Source: Nitrospinota bacterium (GTDB taxonomy: Bacteria > UBA8248). From it: DNA of 35,432 nucleotides. The translations under genes were made by a program, and so were the position numbers. How positions within the stretch are numbered: the stretch's first letter is position 1; each line of letters begins with the position of its first letter. The stretch is taken from assembly GCA_028820795.1 (NCBI GenBank), contig JAPPHK010000072.1:1-35432 (forward strand), given 5' to 3'. Below are positions 24,332-32,306 of the stretch, in pieces. The notes beneath the pieces were generated by a model, which saw nothing but the letters and a program-made list of their open reading frames with translations, did not search any database and had not been told where the DNA came from.

Positions 24332-24359
24332 GTAGGGACAGGTCGCGACCTGTCCCTAC
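24332..24359. repeat. Perfect 28-bp palindrome
   Basis: Two 14-bp arms (GTAGGGACAGGTCG and its exact complement) meet with no spacer. It lies 32 bp after the GyrI-like stop. The border GTAGGG/CCCTAC matches the ends of the modular repeats at 24.69, 27.9 and 30.5 kb, so it is probably another module of that family. There is no T-run, so it is not a classic terminator. Confidence 0.8.
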
Positions 24360-24465
24360 GGCCGCCATTCGAGGGGATATGCAGAGGTCGCCGATCGGGA
24401 TGGACCCACCCGCGCGGCATCGGGCTTCGCAGAACGCTTGACACCCTCAAACCGAGCACCCCGAA

Positions 24466-24580
24466 CCCTCATCCTGAGTAGGCGCGTAAGCGCCGTATCG
24501 AAGGATGGGGGAGCGCATCTCTCCGACAAGCGCGAATTTCGCCCTTCGATACGCCGCCTTCGGCGGCTACTCAGGGTGAG
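24466..24580. repeat. REP-like paired palindromic repeat
   Basis: Two units of about 39 bp face each other across 36 bp. The left unit (CTCATCCTGAGTA, a small GGCGC/GCGCC hairpin, then GTATCGAAGG) is the reverse complement in outline of the right unit (CCTTCGATAC, a GCCGCCTTCGGCGGC hairpin, TACTCAGGGTGAG). The whole could fold into a long cruciform with two internal hairpins. This resembles extragenic palindromes found in many proteobacterial genomes. No repeat-associated transposase is present in the window. Confidence 0.75.
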
Positions 24581-24658
24581 GCGGAGCGGCGGGCTGCGCA
24601 GGACGAGTAGGAGGATTGCTCCACATCGAACTTTTTCAAGGACCCTTTCAAAGAAGGA

Positions 24659-24775
24659 GTTGTTAAAAAACCGGAGAGGGTAATTTTTTGTGTGTAGGTC
24701 GGACATATATGTCCGACATATATGCGACCCGGTTTTTTCACCCACTACAAGGGCCGCATGTATGTGGCCCCTACA
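24659..24775. repeat. Modular palindromic repeat, copy A
   Basis: The core runs from TGTAGG at 24693 to CTACA at 24775. A perfect 20-bp palindrome GTCGGACATATATGTCCGAC (24698-24717) is followed by ATATATGCGACCC and, after a short spacer, by the imperfect palindrome GGGCCGCATGTATGTGGCCC (24751-24770). The left flank GTTGTTAAAAAACCGG resembles the outer end of copy C. No right outer end is visible, so this copy looks truncated on that side. It separates the convergent GyrI-like and molybdoenzyme genes. The rest of 24776-24872 holds only an inverted GGAAT-type short repeat (GGAATCCCGACGCCGGAATG). Confidence 0.85.
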
Positions 24776-24872
24776 CCTTTGTGCGGCAAGACGGAATCCC
24801 GACGCCGGAATGACGGTGGTTTATTTCGGTCGATGAGGAAAGGAACAAGAGCAGATCACGACATCGGACAAG

Positions 24873-27824
24873 TCACGCCTTTGTGATTCGGCACAGCAGA
24901 CTCTTGAGGTTCGTCTGGTCCGAGCACGGGTCGCGCTGCGCGACGTCCGTCAGGAAATTCACCGACCGCCATGGATGGTAGGGCTGGCGCTCCCCCCAGC
25001 CGATGGGAACGTACACCGAGTCCTCCCTGATGCCTGCATTCACCCAGGCCATCGCCTCGATGGCGCCGTGCGCGGTCTCCACCTTGACTTTCTCTCCGTC
25101 CTCGATTCCCAATGCTCCCGCTTTTCGGGGATGCATCTGGCAATAGAGGTCGGGCCACATCTCCTGCGCCTGCCAGAAATAATGCGTCCAGCTATGGAAA
25201 TGCGGTGCGGGCGGCCGCCCCGTTATCAGCGTCGTCTCGAAGCCTTGCCTGCGGAGCGCATCGCCCAGGTTTTCCTCATCCGGCTGAACGATTCTGGCGG
25301 CGCGGGAACCCGTCGGCGCCTTGCTGAACGGGGAGATGACTTCCAGATCGTCATCTTCGTGTTCGTATTCGAGATACGGCAACCCCAGGAGATTCTCTTT
25401 CTCGCTGTAGAACTCCGGCAGCGCGGAGAGCCCTACTTTAGAGAATTTTTCCTCCAGCGCCTCCGTCCAGAACTCGAGCCGCCCGCTCGGCGTCGGGAAG
25501 CGCTTGCCGTCTGGCTGCCCGGTGGCGGTCGTTCCTTCGAGATAAAGCGTTTCCTGCTCTGGAGCATCTTCGCTCGCGACGGGAAAGCGCACCCACCGCC
25601 AGGGAACCGAGTGGAGCCTTTTCTGCGTCACGCCCCGCAGGAAATCGTTGTCGATGCACATCTCGTCCCAGAATTTGCCCGGATCCTTGTATTCCTCTTT
25701 CATGACGTCGCCGAAGCCCAGGCGTCTTCCGAGTTCTATCCATATCCAGCCGTCGGGCTTCGCCTCCCCCGGCGGGTCGATCATCTTGTCGATCCACACG
25801 ATTCTTCGGTCGTCGTTCGTGCGGCCCAGCTCTCCCTTCTCGATACCGCCCGCCGCGGGCAGCACGTAATCCGCATAGGCCGAGGTCTCGTTCGCGAACA
25901 ACTCGACGTGGACGATGAGGTCGAGCGCCTGGAAGGCCGCGCGCGCCTCGTCCTGGCCCGGCCATTGCGCGAGCGGGTTGTTGCACGTGATGAGGCCCTT
26001 GATGGGGTACGGCTTGCCCTCCCGCATAGCGCTCAGCCAGCCCGCCGGGCTCCTGCGGACCATGGGCTTTCGAATCTTCGCCCTCCTCTCCTCCGGCGCG
26101 TTGGCGGCGATGGGCGGGCCCGCCGTCATGTTCACGTAGGCGCCGCCCCTGCGGCCCCAGTTCCCCGTTATCGCGGCGACGAACATGAACGCCCGGTTCG
26201 TCTGCACCGAGTTGGTGTGCTGGTTGAGTCCCCGGCTCCCGAAGATGACGCAGCCGTCCGCCCGGGCCACGTCCCCGGCAAGCGCGCGGATATCCTCCGC
26301 AGATATGCCCGTAACGGCTTCCGCCCAATCGGGGGAGTAGCCTTTTTCGAATATGAAATCGCGCCAGCGCTCCCAGCCCAGCACCCACTCCTCGCAGAAA
26401 CGCGCATCGTGCAGGTCTTCCGAGAAGATATGGTGCGCCATGGCGAGGCCGAGCGCCATGTCGGTGCCCGGACGGATGGCGAGCCATTTATCCGCCTTGC
26501 TCGCCGTGGCGGTATACCTCGGGTCCACCACCACCATCTTCGTCTTGTTCCTGATGCGCCAGTCGTTCACCTTGCCGAAGTAGACCGGCCGCGTCTCCGC
26601 CTGGTTGTCCCCGACGTAGAGATACATGCCGGCGCTGCCGATGTCCCCGGGCGTGTAGCTGTTCCCGTTGCCGTTGATCCCGTGCGTCACCTCGTAGGCG
26701 ACCACCTTGCCCGCCGCGCAGAACGGGTCCGTCCCCTGCAGGTTGGGTGTGCCCCACATCTGGCTGAACAGCCGCACGTAGCCTTTCTGCGTAATCAGGC
26801 CCGTGCGGGTGCCTACGAACATCGCCAGCGCCTCAGGACCCCACCGTTCTCTCAAGACTTCGAGTTTCGCGGCGATCTCATCGAGCGCCTGCTCCCAGGT
26901 GATGCGCTCGAATTTATTTTCGCCCCGTCGGCCGACGCGCTTGAGAGGGTACTCGAGGCGATGCTCGTTGTGATGGAGCTGGAGCGTGAACTGCGCCTTG
27001 GGGCAGATTTTTCCGTTCAGGACGGGATCCTCATCGTTCCCCGTCACGTTGATGAGCTTATCGCCCTGGAAATGGAACTTGGCGCTGCAGCAGTTGAAAC
27101 AGAAATTACATCCCCCGGGCACGACGCGGTCCGCTTTGAGCGCCTTTTTGTCATGCAGGTAGGGAAAGGCGGGGCCTTTCTCCTCGAAAACGCCGTTCGC
27201 TTCGGGTGATTCCACGAAACGGGGACGGCTCGGTTTTTCACACAAACCCGAACTTTCTACGCCGTTCGCGCGGCCGTTTGCTCTCCCGATTTTCTCCAGA
27301 TAAATCGTCTGGGGCTTCAGGAGAAAATGATCGTGATCCCGAAGGCTCCGATCTTCCTCATGTGCTTTTTCGAGAAGGTCCTCCCGCTCCCCGAACGAGA
27401 TGGCGAAACCCGGACAGATTTCCGCGCAGGCGGGATCGAGCCCCTTCTCCCGCCGCTCGGGGCACAGGTCGCACTTCACCGAGTGATGCCCCTGCGCGTC
27501 ATAGCCCATCGCGCTGTAAGGACACGCCATGACGCATTCCCCGCAACCCGTGCAAAGCGCCTCATGCACCTCCACCACGCCGGTATCGGGGTCTTTCGTG
27601 ATCGCCTTGGGATGGACAGGACAGGCCCTCAGGCACGCGGGCCGCTCGCAGTGCTGGCAGGTGAGCGTGAGGAAATCGGGCGCGCCCGTAGAGGCGTCCC
27701 CCAGCCAGACCACCTTGTTCCGGTACTGGCCGGGGCCGAGCCTGTGCTCCTGCTTGCAGGCCGCCTCGCAACTCTTGCAGCCGAAGCACCGCTCCAGATC
27801 GATCATCAAGGCCAGCTTGCCCAA
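24873..27824 (-). CDS. Fused four-cluster ferredoxin-molybdopterin oxidoreductase
   Basis: A 983-aa fusion of an electron-transfer beta subunit and a catalytic alpha subunit of the DMSO reductase superfamily. Residues 1-165 carry four cysteine clusters (CFGCKSCEAACKQEH, CQHCERPACLRACP, CTGCGECVMACP, CDLC...CAEICP), as in DmsB/NrfC. A linker of about 65 residues follows. The catalytic part opens with C239-x2-C242-x3-C246-x27-C274 for a further 4Fe-4S cluster. GTDPFCAAGK places Cys369 as the probable Mo/W ligand, as in polysulfide, thiosulfate and tetrathionate-type reductases. The C-terminal molybdopterin domain includes MHPRKAGALGIEDGEKV. There is no Tat signal, so it should face the cytosol. 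The start is TTG, supported by AAGGAG six bases upstream. The partner is the cytochrome b encoded just upstream. The substrate is unknown. Confidence 0.92.
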   Translation of the reverse strand: MGKLALMIDLERCFGCKSCEAACKQEHRLGPGQYRNKVVWLGDASTGAPDFLTLTCQHCERPACLRACPVHPKAITKDPDTGVVEVHEALCTGCGECVMACPYSAMGYDAQGHHSVKCDLCPERREKGLDPACAEICPGFAISFGEREDLLEKAHEEDRSLRDHDHFLLKPQTIYLEKIGRANGRANGVESSGLCEKPSRPRFVESPEANGVFEEKGPAFPYLHDKKALKADRVVPGGCNFCFNCCSAKFHFQGDKLINVTGNDEDPVLNGKICPKAQFTLQLHHNEHRLEYPLKRVGRRGENKFERITWEQALDEIAAKLEVLRERWGPEALAMFVGTRTGLITQKGYVRLFSQMWGTPNLQGTDPFCAAGKVVAYEVTHGINGNGNSYTPGDIGSAGMYLYVGDNQAETRPVYFGKVNDWRIRNKTKMVVVDPRYTATASKADKWLAIRPGTDMALGLAMAHHIFSEDLHDARFCEEWVLGWERWRDFIFEKGYSPDWAEAVTGISAEDIRALAGDVARADGCVIFGSRGLNQHTNSVQTNRAFMFVAAITGNWGRRGGAYVNMTAGPPIAANAPEERRAKIRKPMVRRSPAGWLSAMREGKPYPIKGLITCNNPLAQWPGQDEARAAFQALDLIVHVELFANETSAYADYVLPAAGGIEKGELGRTNDDRRIVWIDKMIDPPGEAKPDGWIWIELGRRLGFGDVMKEEYKDPGKFWDEMCIDNDFLRGVTQKRLHSVPWRWVRFPVASEDAPEQETLYLEGTTATGQPDGKRFPTPSGRLEFWTEALEEKFSKVGLSALPEFYSEKENLLGLPYLEYEHEDDDLEVISPFSKAPTGSRAARIVQPDEENLGDALRRQGFETTLITGRPPAPHFHSWTHYFWQAQEMWPDLYCQMHPRKAGALGIEDGEKVKVETAHGAIEAMAWVNAGIREDSVYVPIGWGERQPYHPWRSVNFLTDVAQRDPCSDQTNLKSLLCRITKA

Positions 27825-27842
27825 GACTCGCTCCTTCAGGAA

Positions 27843-28066
27843 GGGGTGTCGAAAAGGCCCTCCTCACTCGGAATTGGCTACCGCCGTTATTCCGGCGTTA
27901 ATGCCGCTCCTGTTGTAGGTCGGACATATATGTCCGACATATATGCGACCCTGATTTTCGCCCCTCCTGCGAACGGGCCGCATATCTGTAGCGCTCCCTT
28001 CTTGGGAGCGCTACCTACAAAACCAACATCCCCGCCCCTCCTCGGATAGATTCTTTCAACAACCCC
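27843..28066. repeat. Modular palindromic repeat, copy B, with swapped right module
   Basis: The core TGTAGG at 27914 and the 20-bp palindrome at 27919-27938 are identical to copies A and C, again followed by ATATATGCGACCC. The right module begins GGGCCGCATAT but then switches to a different perfect hairpin, GTAGCGCTCCC-TTCTT-GGGAGCGCTAC (27988-28014), ending CTACA at 28019. The outer ends GGGGTGTCGAAAAG (27843) and CTTTCAACAACCCC (28053-28066) form imperfect inverted repeats matching copy C. It lies between the cytochrome b and molybdoenzyme genes. Its edge is about 8 bp upstream of the AAGGAG of the latter, so it forms that gene's leader. Confidence 0.82.
27988..28014. repeat. Perfect 11-bp stem hairpin inside copy B
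   Basis: GTAGCGCTCCC and GGGAGCGCTAC flank the loop TTCTT. With its GC-rich stem it would be very stable in mRNA on either strand. It lies in the 252-bp gap of an apparent operon. It has no long T-run, so pausing or RNA processing is more likely than intrinsic termination. Confidence 0.8.
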
Positions 28067-28076
28067 GACGCGCGGA

Positions 28077-28850
28077 CTACCACTTCGTCAAATGCCACCA
28101 GTATATCTCCTCGCCGCCCGAGACATAACCGGCGAAAAACGTGACGGTGACGACGTGCCCCACAATACCGAGAATGAAGAGATAAGCCAAAACGACGTGA
28201 ACGATACGCCAATACGCCTGCGCGGGAGATACGCCGGAGCGCACGCCCAACAGCTTGTTTTCCCGGCCGATAAGCCGGGCGTAGGCGAGGGTAAGCCCGG
28301 GTCTTGAGAACCAATGCTTGAGCCTCGGAGAGAAGACGCCCTCGTCCGCTCCCGGCTCGATCCTCGACAACAGGGACTCTTTTTCTTCGATGAGGCGGGC
28401 CAGACGCTCGCGGTTTTCGGAACCGGGCGGGGAGAAGGATTCTTCCCTCGAGGCGAAGGTGGCCGCCATGTTTTTGGAGAGGCGGACGCGCGCCCACACG
28501 CCCAGGATCACCAGCACCAAGAGTGCGACGAGCAACAGCGCCGGCGCATAGCGAAGAAATCCGGCCGAGTGGATAGTGACCAGCACGCCGCCCAGGGTGG
28601 CCGTCACGACATGGGCGGAAAACCAGCCAAGTGGAGAGCCGCCCGCCCCCGTTCGCTTCGTGACTACGAAAACCATGGAGACGCACAGGAGAACCGTCCC
28701 CGCGACGCCGATCAGATACAGCGTGGGGGAACCCGGCAGATGCCATTCACGCGGTAATTCGCGCTGAAACGCGAAGAAGGTGACCAGAACGACCGCCGCC
28801 GCGAAGACGAGGTACGCAAGCAGCCTGTCGCCGATATCGAGTCGTCTCAT
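28077..28850 (-). CDS. Diheme cytochrome b-like membrane subunit
   Basis: A 257-aa inner-membrane protein with about five hydrophobic helices (about 10-27, 42-63, 76-98, 103-120 and 214-238). His80 and His94 in one helix and His218 and His232 in another are each 14 residues apart, the pattern that holds two stacked b hemes by bis-His ligation. A charged segment of about 80 residues (NMAATFASREESFSPPGSEN onward) separates the helices and is probably cytosolic. I infer a quinone-linked membrane anchor that exchanges electrons with the fused molybdoenzyme encoded next. No haem-binding CxxCH is present. It starts 5 bp after the greA stop with no Shine-Dalgarno, so translation is probably coupled to greA. 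Confidence 0.75.
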   Translation of the reverse strand: MRRLDIGDRLLAYLVFAAAVVLVTFFAFQRELPREWHLPGSPTLYLIGVAGTVLLCVSMVFVVTKRTGAGGSPLGWFSAHVVTATLGGVLVTIHSAGFLRYAPALLLVALLVLVILGVWARVRLSKNMAATFASREESFSPPGSENRERLARLIEEKESLLSRIEPGADEGVFSPRLKHWFSRPGLTLAYARLIGRENKLLGVRSGVSPAQAYWRIVHVVLAYLFILGIVGHVVTVTFFAGYVSGGEEIYWWHLTKW

Positions 28851-28855
28851 GAAAA

Positions 28856-29335
28856 TCAGGAAAATTCGATTTTTTCTACGTCCACGATCTCGAAATTTCT
28901 TACGCCGCCGGGCAACTGCACCGCCACCTCATCGCCCGGTTCTTTCTGCATCAGCCCGCGCGAGAGCGGCGCGCTGAAGGAAATAATCCCGTTCGGGAGG
29001 TCGCTTTCCTCCTCGCCCAGTATCTTGTAGGTAAGCTCTTCGTTCTTATCCAGATCGAAAAGCGTGACTTTTGTGCCGATGGTGACCCTGTCACCGGAGA
29101 TGGGAAGTTCCTCTATCACGCTCGCCTCGCGAATCTTGTCCATGATCCGACTCACCTCGTTCTTCAGGTTACCCTGCAACTCGATGGCGGCCTCCCACTC
29201 GGCGTTCTCGCTCAAATCGCCCAGACTCGCGGCCTTACCAATTTCCTTGGACACCTCATGTTTCAGGCGGTACTGAATCTGTTCGACCTTCTGTCTCAGT
29301 CCTTCTAAGCTCGCTTTGGTGATGTAATACGGCAT
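28856..29335 (-). CDS. greA: Transcription elongation factor GreA
   Basis: Binds RNA polymerase in the secondary channel and stimulates cleavage of backtracked RNA, 159 aa. The N-terminal coiled coil carries the acidic tip GDLSENAEWEAA, with the catalytic Asp and Glu. The C-terminal FKBP-like domain includes VTIGTKVTLFDLD, YKILGEEESD and ISFSAPLSRGLMQKEPGDEV. GAGGAAG just before the ATG is a strong ribosome binding site. Neighbours are a class IV aminotransferase upstream (41 bp) and cytochrome b downstream (5 bp), an unusual company for greA. Confidence 0.96.
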   Translation of the reverse strand: MPYYITKASLEGLRQKVEQIQYRLKHEVSKEIGKAASLGDLSENAEWEAAIELQGNLKNEVSRIMDKIREASVIEELPISGDRVTIGTKVTLFDLDKNEELTYKILGEEESDLPNGIISFSAPLSRGLMQKEPGDEVAVQLPGGVRNFEIVDVEKIEFS

Positions 29336-29376
29336 TTCTTCCTCATCCAGCCTTAGAAATAATCGAAAATCGCGCC

Positions 29377-30294
29377 TCAGGCGCCTTCCTTTATTTTTTC
29401 CTTCACCTGATCGCGAAAGTCATACCCCGTATCCTCCACGAACGCCTCGATCAGGCGTTTCGTGACCGGCCCCGGAACCTGCGCGCTCGGCTTGAAGCTG
29501 TCTATCTCGCGCACCGGCATGGCGCATATCGCGCTCGAGGTGATGAAATACTCTTCCGCCTGCGCCAGGTCGTATGTCGTCATGTCCCTTTCCTCGACGG
29601 CGATGCCCAGACGTGCAGCCAGTTCGAACACCGCGATGCGCGTTACTCCCTGCAATATGTTCCTCTCATGCGGCGTCCAGAGCGCGCCATCCTTCACCAT
29701 GAAGAAATTGGCGCTCGAGTTCTCCGTCACGTTCCCGCGCACGTCGAGCATCAGGGAGAGCGAACCCGACGCTGCGGCGTCGAGTTCCGCCAAAATCTGG
29801 TTCATCTTGCTCGTCACCTTGGCTCTCGTCTCGATGCATTCGGGCGGGTTGCGCCTCGTGGGCGTTATCGCCAGACGCACGCCGTTCAGGTACCGCTCCG
29901 CGAAGGACGCCACGTTCACGGGCCGCCAGAATATGAACACCGAAGCCGGCCCCGCCGCGCCCGCCGCCATGGAGGGGTCGTCATATCCGCGGGTCACCCA
30001 GTGGCCGACGCGGTACATGGCGCCCTCTTCGAGACGGCACAGATTCGCCTCCAGGGTGGCGAGCGTGGCTTGTTTCATCTCCGCCTGGCTGATACCGACG
30101 TCGATACGGACGTACTTGAGCGAGCGGTAGAGGCGGTCGATATGGTCATCGAGCCGATAGAGCTTTCCCGCGAAACACGGGGTGACCTCGTACACCCCGT
30201 CGCCCCAGAGGAAACCGCGATCGAAGGGCGATATCCTGGCGCTGTTTTCTTCTATGACCTCTCCGTTGAGATAGACGAATCGCTCACCGGGCAT
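29377..30294 (-). CDS. Class IV aminotransferase (branched-chain or D-amino-acid type)
   Basis: PLP enzyme of 305 aa in the IlvE/Dat/PabC fold. The opening VYLNGEVIEENSARISPFDRGFLWGDGVYEV is the family start, RLYRSLKYVRIDV follows, and the PLP Lys is in RAKVTSKMNQILAE. ENSSANFFMVKDGALWTPHERNILQGVTR is the cofactor phosphate region. The usual IlvE Tyr/Arg pattern is not decisive, so branched-chain aminotransferase, D-alanine aminotransferase or a specialised transaminase are all possible. GGAGGAG precedes the ATG. It lies upstream of greA and downstream of repeat copy C. Confidence 0.9.
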   Translation of the reverse strand: MPGERFVYLNGEVIEENSARISPFDRGFLWGDGVYEVTPCFAGKLYRLDDHIDRLYRSLKYVRIDVGISQAEMKQATLATLEANLCRLEEGAMYRVGHWVTRGYDDPSMAAGAAGPASVFIFWRPVNVASFAERYLNGVRLAITPTRRNPPECIETRAKVTSKMNQILAELDAAASGSLSLMLDVRGNVTENSSANFFMVKDGALWTPHERNILQGVTRIAVFELAARLGIAVEERDMTTYDLAQAEEYFITSSAICAMPVREIDSFKPSAQVPGPVTKRLIEAFVEDTGYDFRDQVKEKIKEGA

Positions 30295-30390
30295 CGGACG
30301 CTCCTCCCATGCGCATCAACAAAGAAAGGCCGGCCCCGAACGAGGGGCACAGCCGCAAGAAAAATGAACTATCTTCCTACCTGGACCCAT

Positions 30391-30419
30391 CTTATAAAAG
30401 AATAGGCCGGAGGGCAAAA
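30391..30419 (-). promoter_or_regulatory. Weak sigma70-like promoter candidate for the class IV aminotransferase operon
   Basis: On the minus strand, TATAAG (30391-30396) lies 17 bp from TTTTGC (30414-30419), about 100 bp upstream of the aminotransferase ATG. The -10 is good and the -35 poor. It lies between repeat copy C and the gene, where transcription of the greA group could start. Nothing else was seen in 30295-30476. Confidence 0.25.
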
Positions 30420-30483
30420 TCGCTCCGGGAAATTCCGCCGGCCCGCGATAACCGGTTCCGGGTTTTCCCATTCATGCTTATGG

Positions 30484-30663
30484 GGTTGTTGGAAAAGACG
30501 GAAAGGGAAAATTTGTTTGTGTGTAGGTCGGACATATATGTCCGACATATATGCGACCCTGAATTTTTCACCCACTACACGGGCCGCATATATGCGGCCC
30601 CTACAAAAACCGCCCTTCTCGGTTATGTCAAACACTCGTTCATCAGGACTTTGTCAACAGCCT
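30484..30663. mobile_element. Modular palindromic repeat, copy C: MITE-like element
   Basis: The most complete copy. The outer ends GGTTGTTGGAAAAG and CTTTGTCAACAGCC are imperfect inverted repeats, and a perfect 7-bp direct repeat CTTATGG flanks them (30477-30483 and 30664-30670), as expected of a target-site duplication. Inside, the core TGTAGG (30522) leads to GTCGGACATATATGTCCGAC (30527-30546), ATATATGCGACCC, a short spacer and the second perfect palindrome GGGCCGCATATATGCGGCCC (30581-30600), ending CTACA. At about 180 bp with no ORF it is non-autonomous. It lies between hyuB and the class IV aminotransferase gene. Confidence 0.75.
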
Positions 30664-30713
30664 CTTATGGATCGGGCTCCGAGTTGAAAACTTTCCGAAT
30701 CGGCTGAACCCGC

Positions 30714-32306
30714 TCAAGCCTTCCTCCCCCAGCCGCCCCCGCCGGGCGTTTCCAGTCGTATCCTGTCCCCGCGTTTCGCCGAGAGACGGGCCTTGCCGGA
30801 GAATCGCCTCTCCTCACCCCCGCTGATGAGCAGATTCCTGCCTTTCATGCCCGCCTCGCCCCCATTGAGAGGCCAGGGCGCCTTGTCGCGCCGCTCCGTC
30901 ATGAACGAGACGGTGGCGTCGCCCAGCAGTTCGATCTCGCGGATGATGCCGTCGCCGCCGCGGTGCCTGCCCGCACCGCCGCTGCCCCGGCGGACGGTGT
31001 AGCGGCTCACCCGGAACGGATAGGCGTGTTCGAGCGCTTCGATGGGGGTGTTGAGCGTGTTGGTCAGATGGGTATGGATGGCGTCTTCGCCTGCGCCCCA
31101 GGGACCTCCGCCCATGCCGCCGCCCGTGGTCTCATAATATGCGTACGGACGGCCCTGCCGGGGGCCTGCGCGGTGGTCCATACCCCCGACCGTGAGGTTG
31201 TTCATCGTGCCGCACGACGCTGCGGGTATCTTGCCGGGACAGGCTTTCGCGAGCGCGCCCAGTATCACGTCCACCATTCGCTGGCTCGTCTCCACGTTTC
31301 CCCCGGCGACGGCGGCGGGAAACTCGGCGTTCACCACCGTGCCCGAGGGCGCGACGACCTCGACGGGATTCATGCACCCCGAATTGTTCGGGATGTCGTA
31401 GGGCACGAGACAGCGCAGGGCGTAGTAGGCCGCAGTCCTGGCGATGGATTCCACCGCGTTCACGCTGCCCTGCGTCTGGGGAGCGGAGCCGGTGTAGTCC
31501 ACGCGCATTTTCGAGCCGCGCACCGTGATCTCCACCCGTATCGGCACGAAGCCGCTGCCGAAACCGTCGTCGTCCATGTAATCTTGGAATAAGTACCGCC
31601 CGTCGGGGATGTCCCGGATCACGGCCTTGGTCAGCCGCTCGGAGTATTTTTGAAGCTCCACCGTGTAGCGCAGCGTCTCGGCCAGGCCGTGACGCTCGAT
31701 GATCTCGAGGATCCTCCGCTCGCCCACGCGGTTCGCCGCGATTTGCGCGGCGATGTCTCCCCGGCGCTCCTCGGCGGTGCGCACGTTCGCGAGGATGAGC
31801 GCGAAGACGTCTTCCTGCATCTCTCCCCCCCGCACGAGCTTCACCGGCGGGATGACCACCCCGTCCTGGAAAATTTCGGTCGTGATGCTCATCGAGCCCG
31901 GCGCGATGCCGCCCACGTCCGCATGGTGCGCCCGATTGGCCACGTAGTAGATGAGTTTTTCCTTCCCCCGCTCCCTGCCGTATACGGGTGAGATCATCGT
32001 GATGTCCGGCAGGTGGTTTCCTCCGCGAAAAGGGTCGTTCAGCACGACCACGTCGCCCGGCTCGAGCGCCATCCGCTCTATGACGTATTCCACCGACATC
32101 GGCATGGACCCCAGGTGGGCGGGCAAATGCGCCGCCTGCGCCGCCATCCGGCCCTGCACGTCGAAGATGGCGCAAGAGTAATCCTTGCGCTCCTTGATGT
32201 TCGGGGAGAACGAGGAGCGGCACAGCGCCACGCCCATCTCTTCAGAGGCCGCAAAGAACAGGTTGCGGAAGACTTCCAGGAGTATCGGGTCGTACGTTTT
32301 CGCCAT
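30714..32306 (-). CDS. hyuB: Hydantoinase B / oxoprolinase-family subunit HyuB
   Basis: Beta subunit of an ATP-dependent hydantoinase/oxoprolinase-type amidohydrolase, 530 aa, full length. The opening YDPILLEVFRNLFFAASEEMGVAL, then ERKDYSCAIFD, DVVVLNDPFRGGNHLPDITM and ANRAHHADVGGIAPGSM are hallmark segments, the last with possible metal-binding histidines. A Gly-rich C-terminal part (TTGGGMGGGPWGAGEDAIHTH, GGEAGMKGRNLL, ETPGGGGWG) completes it. GAAGG lies four bases before the ATG, inside the end of hyuA, with 9 bp between the genes. The partner HyuA supplies the ATPase domain. The substrate (hydantoin, N-methylhydantoin, 5-oxoproline, a ketone for carboxylation) is undetermined. No acetone carboxylase gamma subunit is seen. 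Confidence 0.94.
   Translation of the reverse strand: MAKTYDPILLEVFRNLFFAASEEMGVALCRSSFSPNIKERKDYSCAIFDVQGRMAAQAAHLPAHLGSMPMSVEYVIERMALEPGDVVVLNDPFRGGNHLPDITMISPVYGRERGKEKLIYYVANRAHHADVGGIAPGSMSITTEIFQDGVVIPPVKLVRGGEMQEDVFALILANVRTAEERRGDIAAQIAANRVGERRILEIIERHGLAETLRYTVELQKYSERLTKAVIRDIPDGRYLFQDYMDDDGFGSGFVPIRVEITVRGSKMRVDYTGSAPQTQGSVNAVESIARTAAYYALRCLVPYDIPNNSGCMNPVEVVAPSGTVVNAEFPAAVAGGNVETSQRMVDVILGALAKACPGKIPAASCGTMNNLTVGGMDHRAGPRQGRPYAYYETTGGGMGGGPWGAGEDAIHTHLTNTLNTPIEALEHAYPFRVSRYTVRRGSGGAGRHRGGDGIIREIELLGDATVSFMTERRDKAPWPLNGGEAGMKGRNLLISGGEERRFSGKARLSAKRGDRIRLETPGGGGWGRKA

Follow-up and report, generated by a model that had tools for sequence, protein, structure and literature searches.

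Paired GTAG-tagged palindromes around a Nitrospinota molybdoenzyme gene very probably belong to a genus-wide family of REPINs

The stretch of DNA analysed here, 35,432 nucleotides of contig JAPPHK010000072.1 from a Nitrospinota bacterium (UBA8248; assembly GCA_028820795.1) and hereafter called the window, carries a molybdoenzyme gene on the minus strand (24873-27824) whose 983-aa product fuses a 4Fe-4S ferredoxin domain to a molybdopterin oxidoreductase. Near it lie three copies of a hairpin-forming repeat, in which we recognise very probable REPINs, that is, doublets of repetitive extragenic palindromic (REP) sequences forming hairpins. An earlier examination of the letters alone, the sequence-only reading, had placed all three copies around the molybdoenzyme genes; copies 1 and 2 do flank this gene, but the neighbours of copy 3 are an aminotransferase gene and a hydantoinase-B gene. 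All three fall between predicted genes, as that reading had said. Its description of a shared core of nearly 40 bp, with TGTAG and a perfect 20-bp palindrome, was also borne out: a 38-bp core, TGTAGGTCGGACATATATGTCCGACATATATGCGACCC, occurs without mismatch at 24693-24730, 27914-27951 and 30522-30559 (0 matches in 100 shuffles), and GTCGGACATATATGTCCGAC within it is a perfect palindrome of 20 bp. The layout of a copy is TGTAG, the hairpin GTCGGACATATATGTCCGAC, ATATATGCGACCC, a spacer of about 20 nt, an inverted GGGNCGCATATATGCGNCCC-type palindrome and CTACA. The copies were located by the exact core and by sequence, and their predicted single-stranded DNA folds are much stronger than those of shuffled sequences (z scores below).

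24693..24775, plus strand: candidate REPIN, copy 1, made of TGTAG, GTCGGACATATATGTCCGAC, ATATATGCGACCC, spacer, GGGCCGCATGTATGTGGCCC and CTACA; fold z -4.1
27914..28019, plus strand: candidate REPIN, copy 2, chimeric, with another GTAG hairpin as its right half; fold z -8.5
27987..28019, no strand assigned: right half of copy 2, a foreign hairpin, TGTAGCGCTCCCTTCTTGGGAGCGCTACCTACA, recognised by sequence
30522..30605, plus strand: candidate REPIN, copy 3, standard form, with the end GGGCCGCATATATGCGGCCCCTACA; fold z -6.3

The core makes up one half of the unit, and its partner is an inverted CATATATG palindrome with a CTACA end, which brings the whole to 80-90 bp. The sequence-only reading had the core followed by such a second palindrome and CTACA. 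This holds for copies 1 and 3, where a CATATATG-type palindrome and CCTACA are present (ends at 24775 and 30605; the palindrome of copy 1, CATGTATG, is slightly imperfect), but not for copy 2, in which an unrelated hairpin, TGTAGCGCTCCC...GGGAGCGCTACCTACA, replaces the right half beyond GGGCCGCATATC. Right-half swaps of this kind also occur in the congener G002 (loci L209, L211, L212 and L213). The window copies are unlike one another in their flanks as well as in spacer and right half.

The host genome is a metagenome-assembled genome (MAG) of 3.28 Mb in 322 contigs, 79% complete, and host counts derive from sequence searches plus fetched stretches of genome. The 20-bp left palindrome occurs at 47 host places with at most two mismatches (34 of them perfect matches; the reversed control gave 0), so the window copies are not the only ones; nor are they parts of one segmental duplication. 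The partner palindrome on the right occurs at 78 host places (reversed controls 0 or near 0). Both palindromes are present in all six congeners, in copy numbers that differ between them, and the tagged left palindrome was absent from 11 other genomes of the family and 43 further genomes searched, the right one from 6 genomes outside the genus. None of 76 checked copies overlaps a predicted gene under a simple codon-usage gene model. An unpaired GTAG foot beside a palindrome of 20-40 nt, as in GTAG-type REPs, is found in the three window copies and in 77 tagged copies; 44 of these 77 distinct GTAG-tagged copies, drawn from seven genomes, are complete inverted pairs of 80-90 bp, and symmetric pairs of the second REP have spacings of mostly 40-48 bp. 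One may postulate that a repeat-rich MAG has produced such a family through faulty assembly or binning, and the fragmented, incomplete host assembly would lend itself to this. However, the same family appears in the six other congener assemblies, some of them of few contigs; the three window copies differ in the ways described above, and their neighbouring genes are syntenic in congeners. We consider an artefact scarcely credible.

The sequence-only reading held three copies within 6 kb to be beyond chance. Placing 47 copies at random gives a triple as tight as the window's with P ~0.13; three copies in 6 kb are therefore unremarkable, and the apparent link to the molybdoenzyme gene carries no weight. 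The same reading had entertained a local regulatory or structural role, under which the hairpins would be kept as terminators, mRNA stabilisers or protein sites of a molybdoenzyme or respiratory locus. The copies are indeed intergenic and their hairpins strong, and REPs elsewhere are able to stabilise mRNA or end transcription (PMC3733652, PMC6006769). Against this, no terminator-like site (a hairpin and then a run of T at a gene's 3' end) was found at the three copies, the region holding 6 such sites compared with 6.1 in shuffles; the copies are not conserved at orthologous sites, and orthologous molybdoenzyme loci in congeners are without them; the family is spread genome-wide; and flanking genes are tandem in 20 cases, convergent in 10 and divergent in 9, so that every orientation occurs. 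A local regulatory role is unsupported and, in our estimate, highly unlikely, and after insertion the REPIN unit has no demonstrated job at this locus. Identifying the repeats as REPINs explains a feature that stands out in the sequence and guards the molybdoenzyme locus against a spurious regulatory interpretation.

REPINs are very small mobile elements whose spread is attributed to REP-associated tyrosine transposases (RAYTs). A RAYT protein query recovered RAYT (TnpA-REP, HUH/Y1) genes or fragments from all seven genomes of the genus, with the conserved motifs HUH (NH-x-H) and WQRSFYDHVIR, the latter holding the single Tyr. A Pfam Y1_Tnp search of the host genome gave no match; the profile is marginal for these proteins, and the success of the protein query in all seven genomes indicates that it is too weak here. 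Two RAYT genes of congener G002, which has a RAYT of this class at C17:54044-54598, bear TGTAGGGGACGCATATATGCGTCCC at their 5' flank, and between their HUH and Tyr motifs the same CATATATG-class REP is present in inverted orientation without breaking the frame; it is in these genes that the sign of a cognate RAYT, a REP of the matching class inside or beside the gene, was seen. The RAYTs of other congeners have different GTAG palindromes at this position, so that each RAYT gene appears to carry its own REP class. Across the genus and the best-scoring distant matches, 30 of 32 RAYT genes have a GTAG hairpin between HUH and Tyr and none has one elsewhere in its coding region; shuffled regions contain one in 0.16% of cases. 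In the Escherichia coli rayT control no GTAG hairpin was found in or next to the gene; this is a weak control, as the scan would miss bulged REPs. The in-frame GTAG hairpin was also seen in RAYTs from many bacterial families, often as an inverted pair (L086:2045-2602, L251-L274 and other RAYT loci).

We conclude that the repeats are very probably REPINs, also termed bacterial interspersed mosaic elements (BIMEs): non-autonomous mobile units of 80-90 bp in which two inverted GTAG-tagged REP palindromes enclose a short spacer. The identification is built on their anatomy (two hairpins with the GTAG foot outermost on both sides), intergenic dispersal, restriction to one genus, association with RAYTs of that genus, and presence or absence between species. 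By analogy with other systems, movement would be brought about by a RAYT through single-strand cutting at the GTAG foot. The REPs would fold when their strand is single, for example on the lagging strand at replication; the RAYT would recognise the GTAG foot of the folded REP, cut at a nearby C/T step and join the hairpin pair elsewhere. GTAG-dependent cutting of REPs by TnpA-REP has been shown in other bacteria (PMC8266576).

REPINs or BIMEs accompanied by RAYTs like those of subclass 2.4 are a known kind, to which the present family is new. As in Pseudomonas fluorescens SBW25 (PMC3116915), the units are dispersed, extragenic and of conserved length, consist of inverted GTAG REPs on either side of a short spacer and are associated with a RAYT class; here, by contrast, the palindromes are others, nearly perfect and CATATATG-centred, and nesting in terminal inverted repeat (TIR) elements is frequent. 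A REP placed between these two motifs has already been published as characteristic of TnpA-REP subclass 2.4 (PMC6006769), and we therefore rejected the in-frame REP as a new feature of RAYT genes. The REPtrons of that subclass share with the present genes this in-frame REP (30 of 32 genes, those of G002 included), double-foot REPs (GTAGGGACAGGTCGCGACCTGTCCCTAC at 24332) and a scatter across phyla; stems based on three G-C pairs are matched by the right palindrome (GGG...CCC), whereas the left palindrome (GTC...GAC) is without the GGG base. That paper makes no mention of Nitrospinota, and membership here is by features, not by placement on its tree. The families GTAG-1 to GTAG-24 (PMC3733652) likewise have a GTAG foot, palindromes of 20-40 bp, HH dimers of unlike partners, occasional nesting in other repeats and a mostly extragenic location, a likeness by description and not by consensus; in the present family, unlike those, the variable position differs between partners almost always. 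BIMEs of E. coli, with RayT (b0228), also comprise two unlike REPs in inverted arrangement and a transposase of the HUH/Tyr family, but E. coli REPs have bulged stems. A literature search for repetitive extragenic palindromic sequences in Nitrospin* came back empty, so that our analysis adds to the record a REPIN/RAYT population in Nitrospinota for which this search returned no earlier report.

Comparison of orthologous loci showed that congener sites are empty or filled with different modules. At the copy-2 site the genes directly abut in G006, G005 and G002, and in three other congeners similar boundaries enclose a different filling. Sites 1 and 3 lack the window's copies in every congener; site 1 in G006 and G003 holds symmetric REPINs of the same family instead. 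At a further host locus, L065, a 185-bp REPIN-holding unit is wholly absent in four congeners and is bordered by a near-match 4-bp duplication (TTAT / TCAT). The copy-3 gap (window 30294-30714) is occupied in G002, G003 and G004 by about 1.1-1.3 kb of unrelated filling with the same TIR-like edges; this includes small open frames, one of them in G002 a 153-aa coiled-coil-like frame.

Several observations weigh against the identification as mobile REPINs. The host MAG, at 79% completeness, yielded no intact RAYT of this REP class; of the host's RAYT sequences, C128 is intact and of another REP class, and C305 consists of two halves in different frames, its C-terminal part being closest to a G002 RAYT (69%). 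The driver in the host may be absent from the MAG, may have been lost, or may be another RAYT of relaxed specificity. The left palindrome (GTC...GAC) shares only the CATATATG core with the REPs in RAYT genes. No clean REPIN-only empty site was seen in the loci compared, which included one two-copy locus; where absence is clear, it takes in the larger stretch of carrier as well, and the unit that moved at those sites may have been something other than the REPIN itself. Mobility, finally, would be deduced from comparison of genomes, with no movement observed. The sequence-only suggestion of an active small mobile family thus survives in part: 47 places, six congeners, variable sites and RAYT genes with the same REP argue for a mobile family, but not for activity today, given that no intact RAYT of the class is present in the incomplete MAG.

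The carrier stretches are short elements bounded by GGGGTTGTTGAAAAAG TIRs, and both REPINs and other hairpin repeats are housed in them. In the window they are:

30482..30664, no strand assigned: TIR carrier around copy 3 (GGGGTTGTTGGAAAAG ... CTTTGTCAACAGCCTC), with TTAT on both sides (30478-30481 and 30665-30668), locus L014; related carriers in congeners
27842..28066, no strand assigned: carrier-like stretch around copy 2 (AGGGGTGTCGAAAAGG ... CTTTCAACAACCCC), wholly absent in G006, G005 and G002
24656..24692, no strand assigned: lone left carrier arm preceding copy 1 (GGAGTTGTTAAAAAACCGGAGAGGG...), with no matching right TIR nearby

Such a carrier looks like a miniature inverted-repeat transposable element (MITE) with exchanged interior. 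Its outer arms are of few types, and an exact 13-base piece of the TIR repeat occurs 58-111 times per genus genome. Many REPINs sit in TIR elements, some with target duplications of 4-6 bp, and copies may therefore also spread or reshuffle as passengers of the carrier. In its strong form this alternative makes a MITE, one belonging to a DDE-type insertion sequence, the main vehicle of spread, with the REPIN as its interior only and the RAYT playing no present part. Two GGGGTTGTTGAAAAAG inverted repeats within 200 bp enclose 27 of 71 copies, and 28 more have one; both TIRs are present at 9% of random positions in the same loci, which were mostly collected for holding REPINs, so that arms without a REPIN are under-sampled. 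Exact flanking direct repeats of 4-6 bp were found in 14 of 69 short GGGGTTGTTGAAAAAG-bounded elements, copy 3 among them (a match of at least 4 bp has a chance of about 1/256), and at L065 it is the entire 185-bp carrier that is missing from four congeners. Other evidence argues against the strong form, however: the same REPIN type is found in several carrier-arm types, joined exactly at TGTAG; 16 of the 71 copies have no TIR nearby; the collected loci, to which this search was confined as opposed to whole genomes, contain no autonomous element with these TIRs, which would be an insertion sequence with GGGGYTGTTGAAAAAG ends; and the association with RAYT genes would have to be accidental. Searching text for the TIR of the carrier returned unrelated sequences only. 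We regard spread chiefly as carrier passengers as unlikely, and continue to favour REPINs associated with RAYTs.

The two halves of a unit also appear to avoid being alike. The variable stem position is paired in 43 of 44 right hairpins, as one of three pair types (C-G, T-A and A-T). Among the symmetric pairs in the matches listed, only 2 of 37 are identical at this position, where 15.7 would be expected. Of the asymmetric copies, 1 of 44 shows perfect complementarity there, compared with 17 expected; both statistics ignore shared descent between species. The latter count gives no covariation support to a fold of left arm and right hairpin as one perfect long hairpin, and we rejected it. A preference for heterodimers, with no obvious explanation, has been described in several REP families, and escape from SbcCD has been suggested (PMC3733652). 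Our data fit this idea without proving it, and the near-complete avoidance of identical halves offers a clean data set for the open question of unlike REP partners (PMC3733652). A composite mobile element may be envisaged, in which the REPIN, spread by an HUH RAYT, would be the standard interior of an element with TIRs and target duplications, the GTAG foot would serve as the exchange joint for arms, spacers and hairpins, and the halves would have to differ at one fixed position. We hold this to be doubtful; if true, one unit would be exploited by two transposition systems that are not related, and the preference of REPs for heterodimers, so far unexplained, could be put in a sharp form open to testing.

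Other repeats accompany the family. Rfam gave no match anywhere in the window. One further REP lies upstream of copy 1:

24332..24359, no strand assigned: different REP, double-foot, GTAGGGACAGGTCGCGACCTGTCCCTAC; same class in RAYT genes L091 and L098

A separate dispersed repeat (CCTTCGATACGCCGCCTTCGGCGGCTACTCAGGGTGAG...) at 24440-24610 has many copies across the genomes of the genus, and inverted pieces, CCGTCATTCCGGC...GCCGGAATGACGG, are frequent at REPIN borders (window 24785-24815 and other REPIN flanks). Relative to the GTCGGAC hairpin, spacers are found in either orientation (L007 and L024), AAGGCGAAAAGGCA compared with TGCCTTTTCGCC, as if the inner part had been turned around between the two ends.

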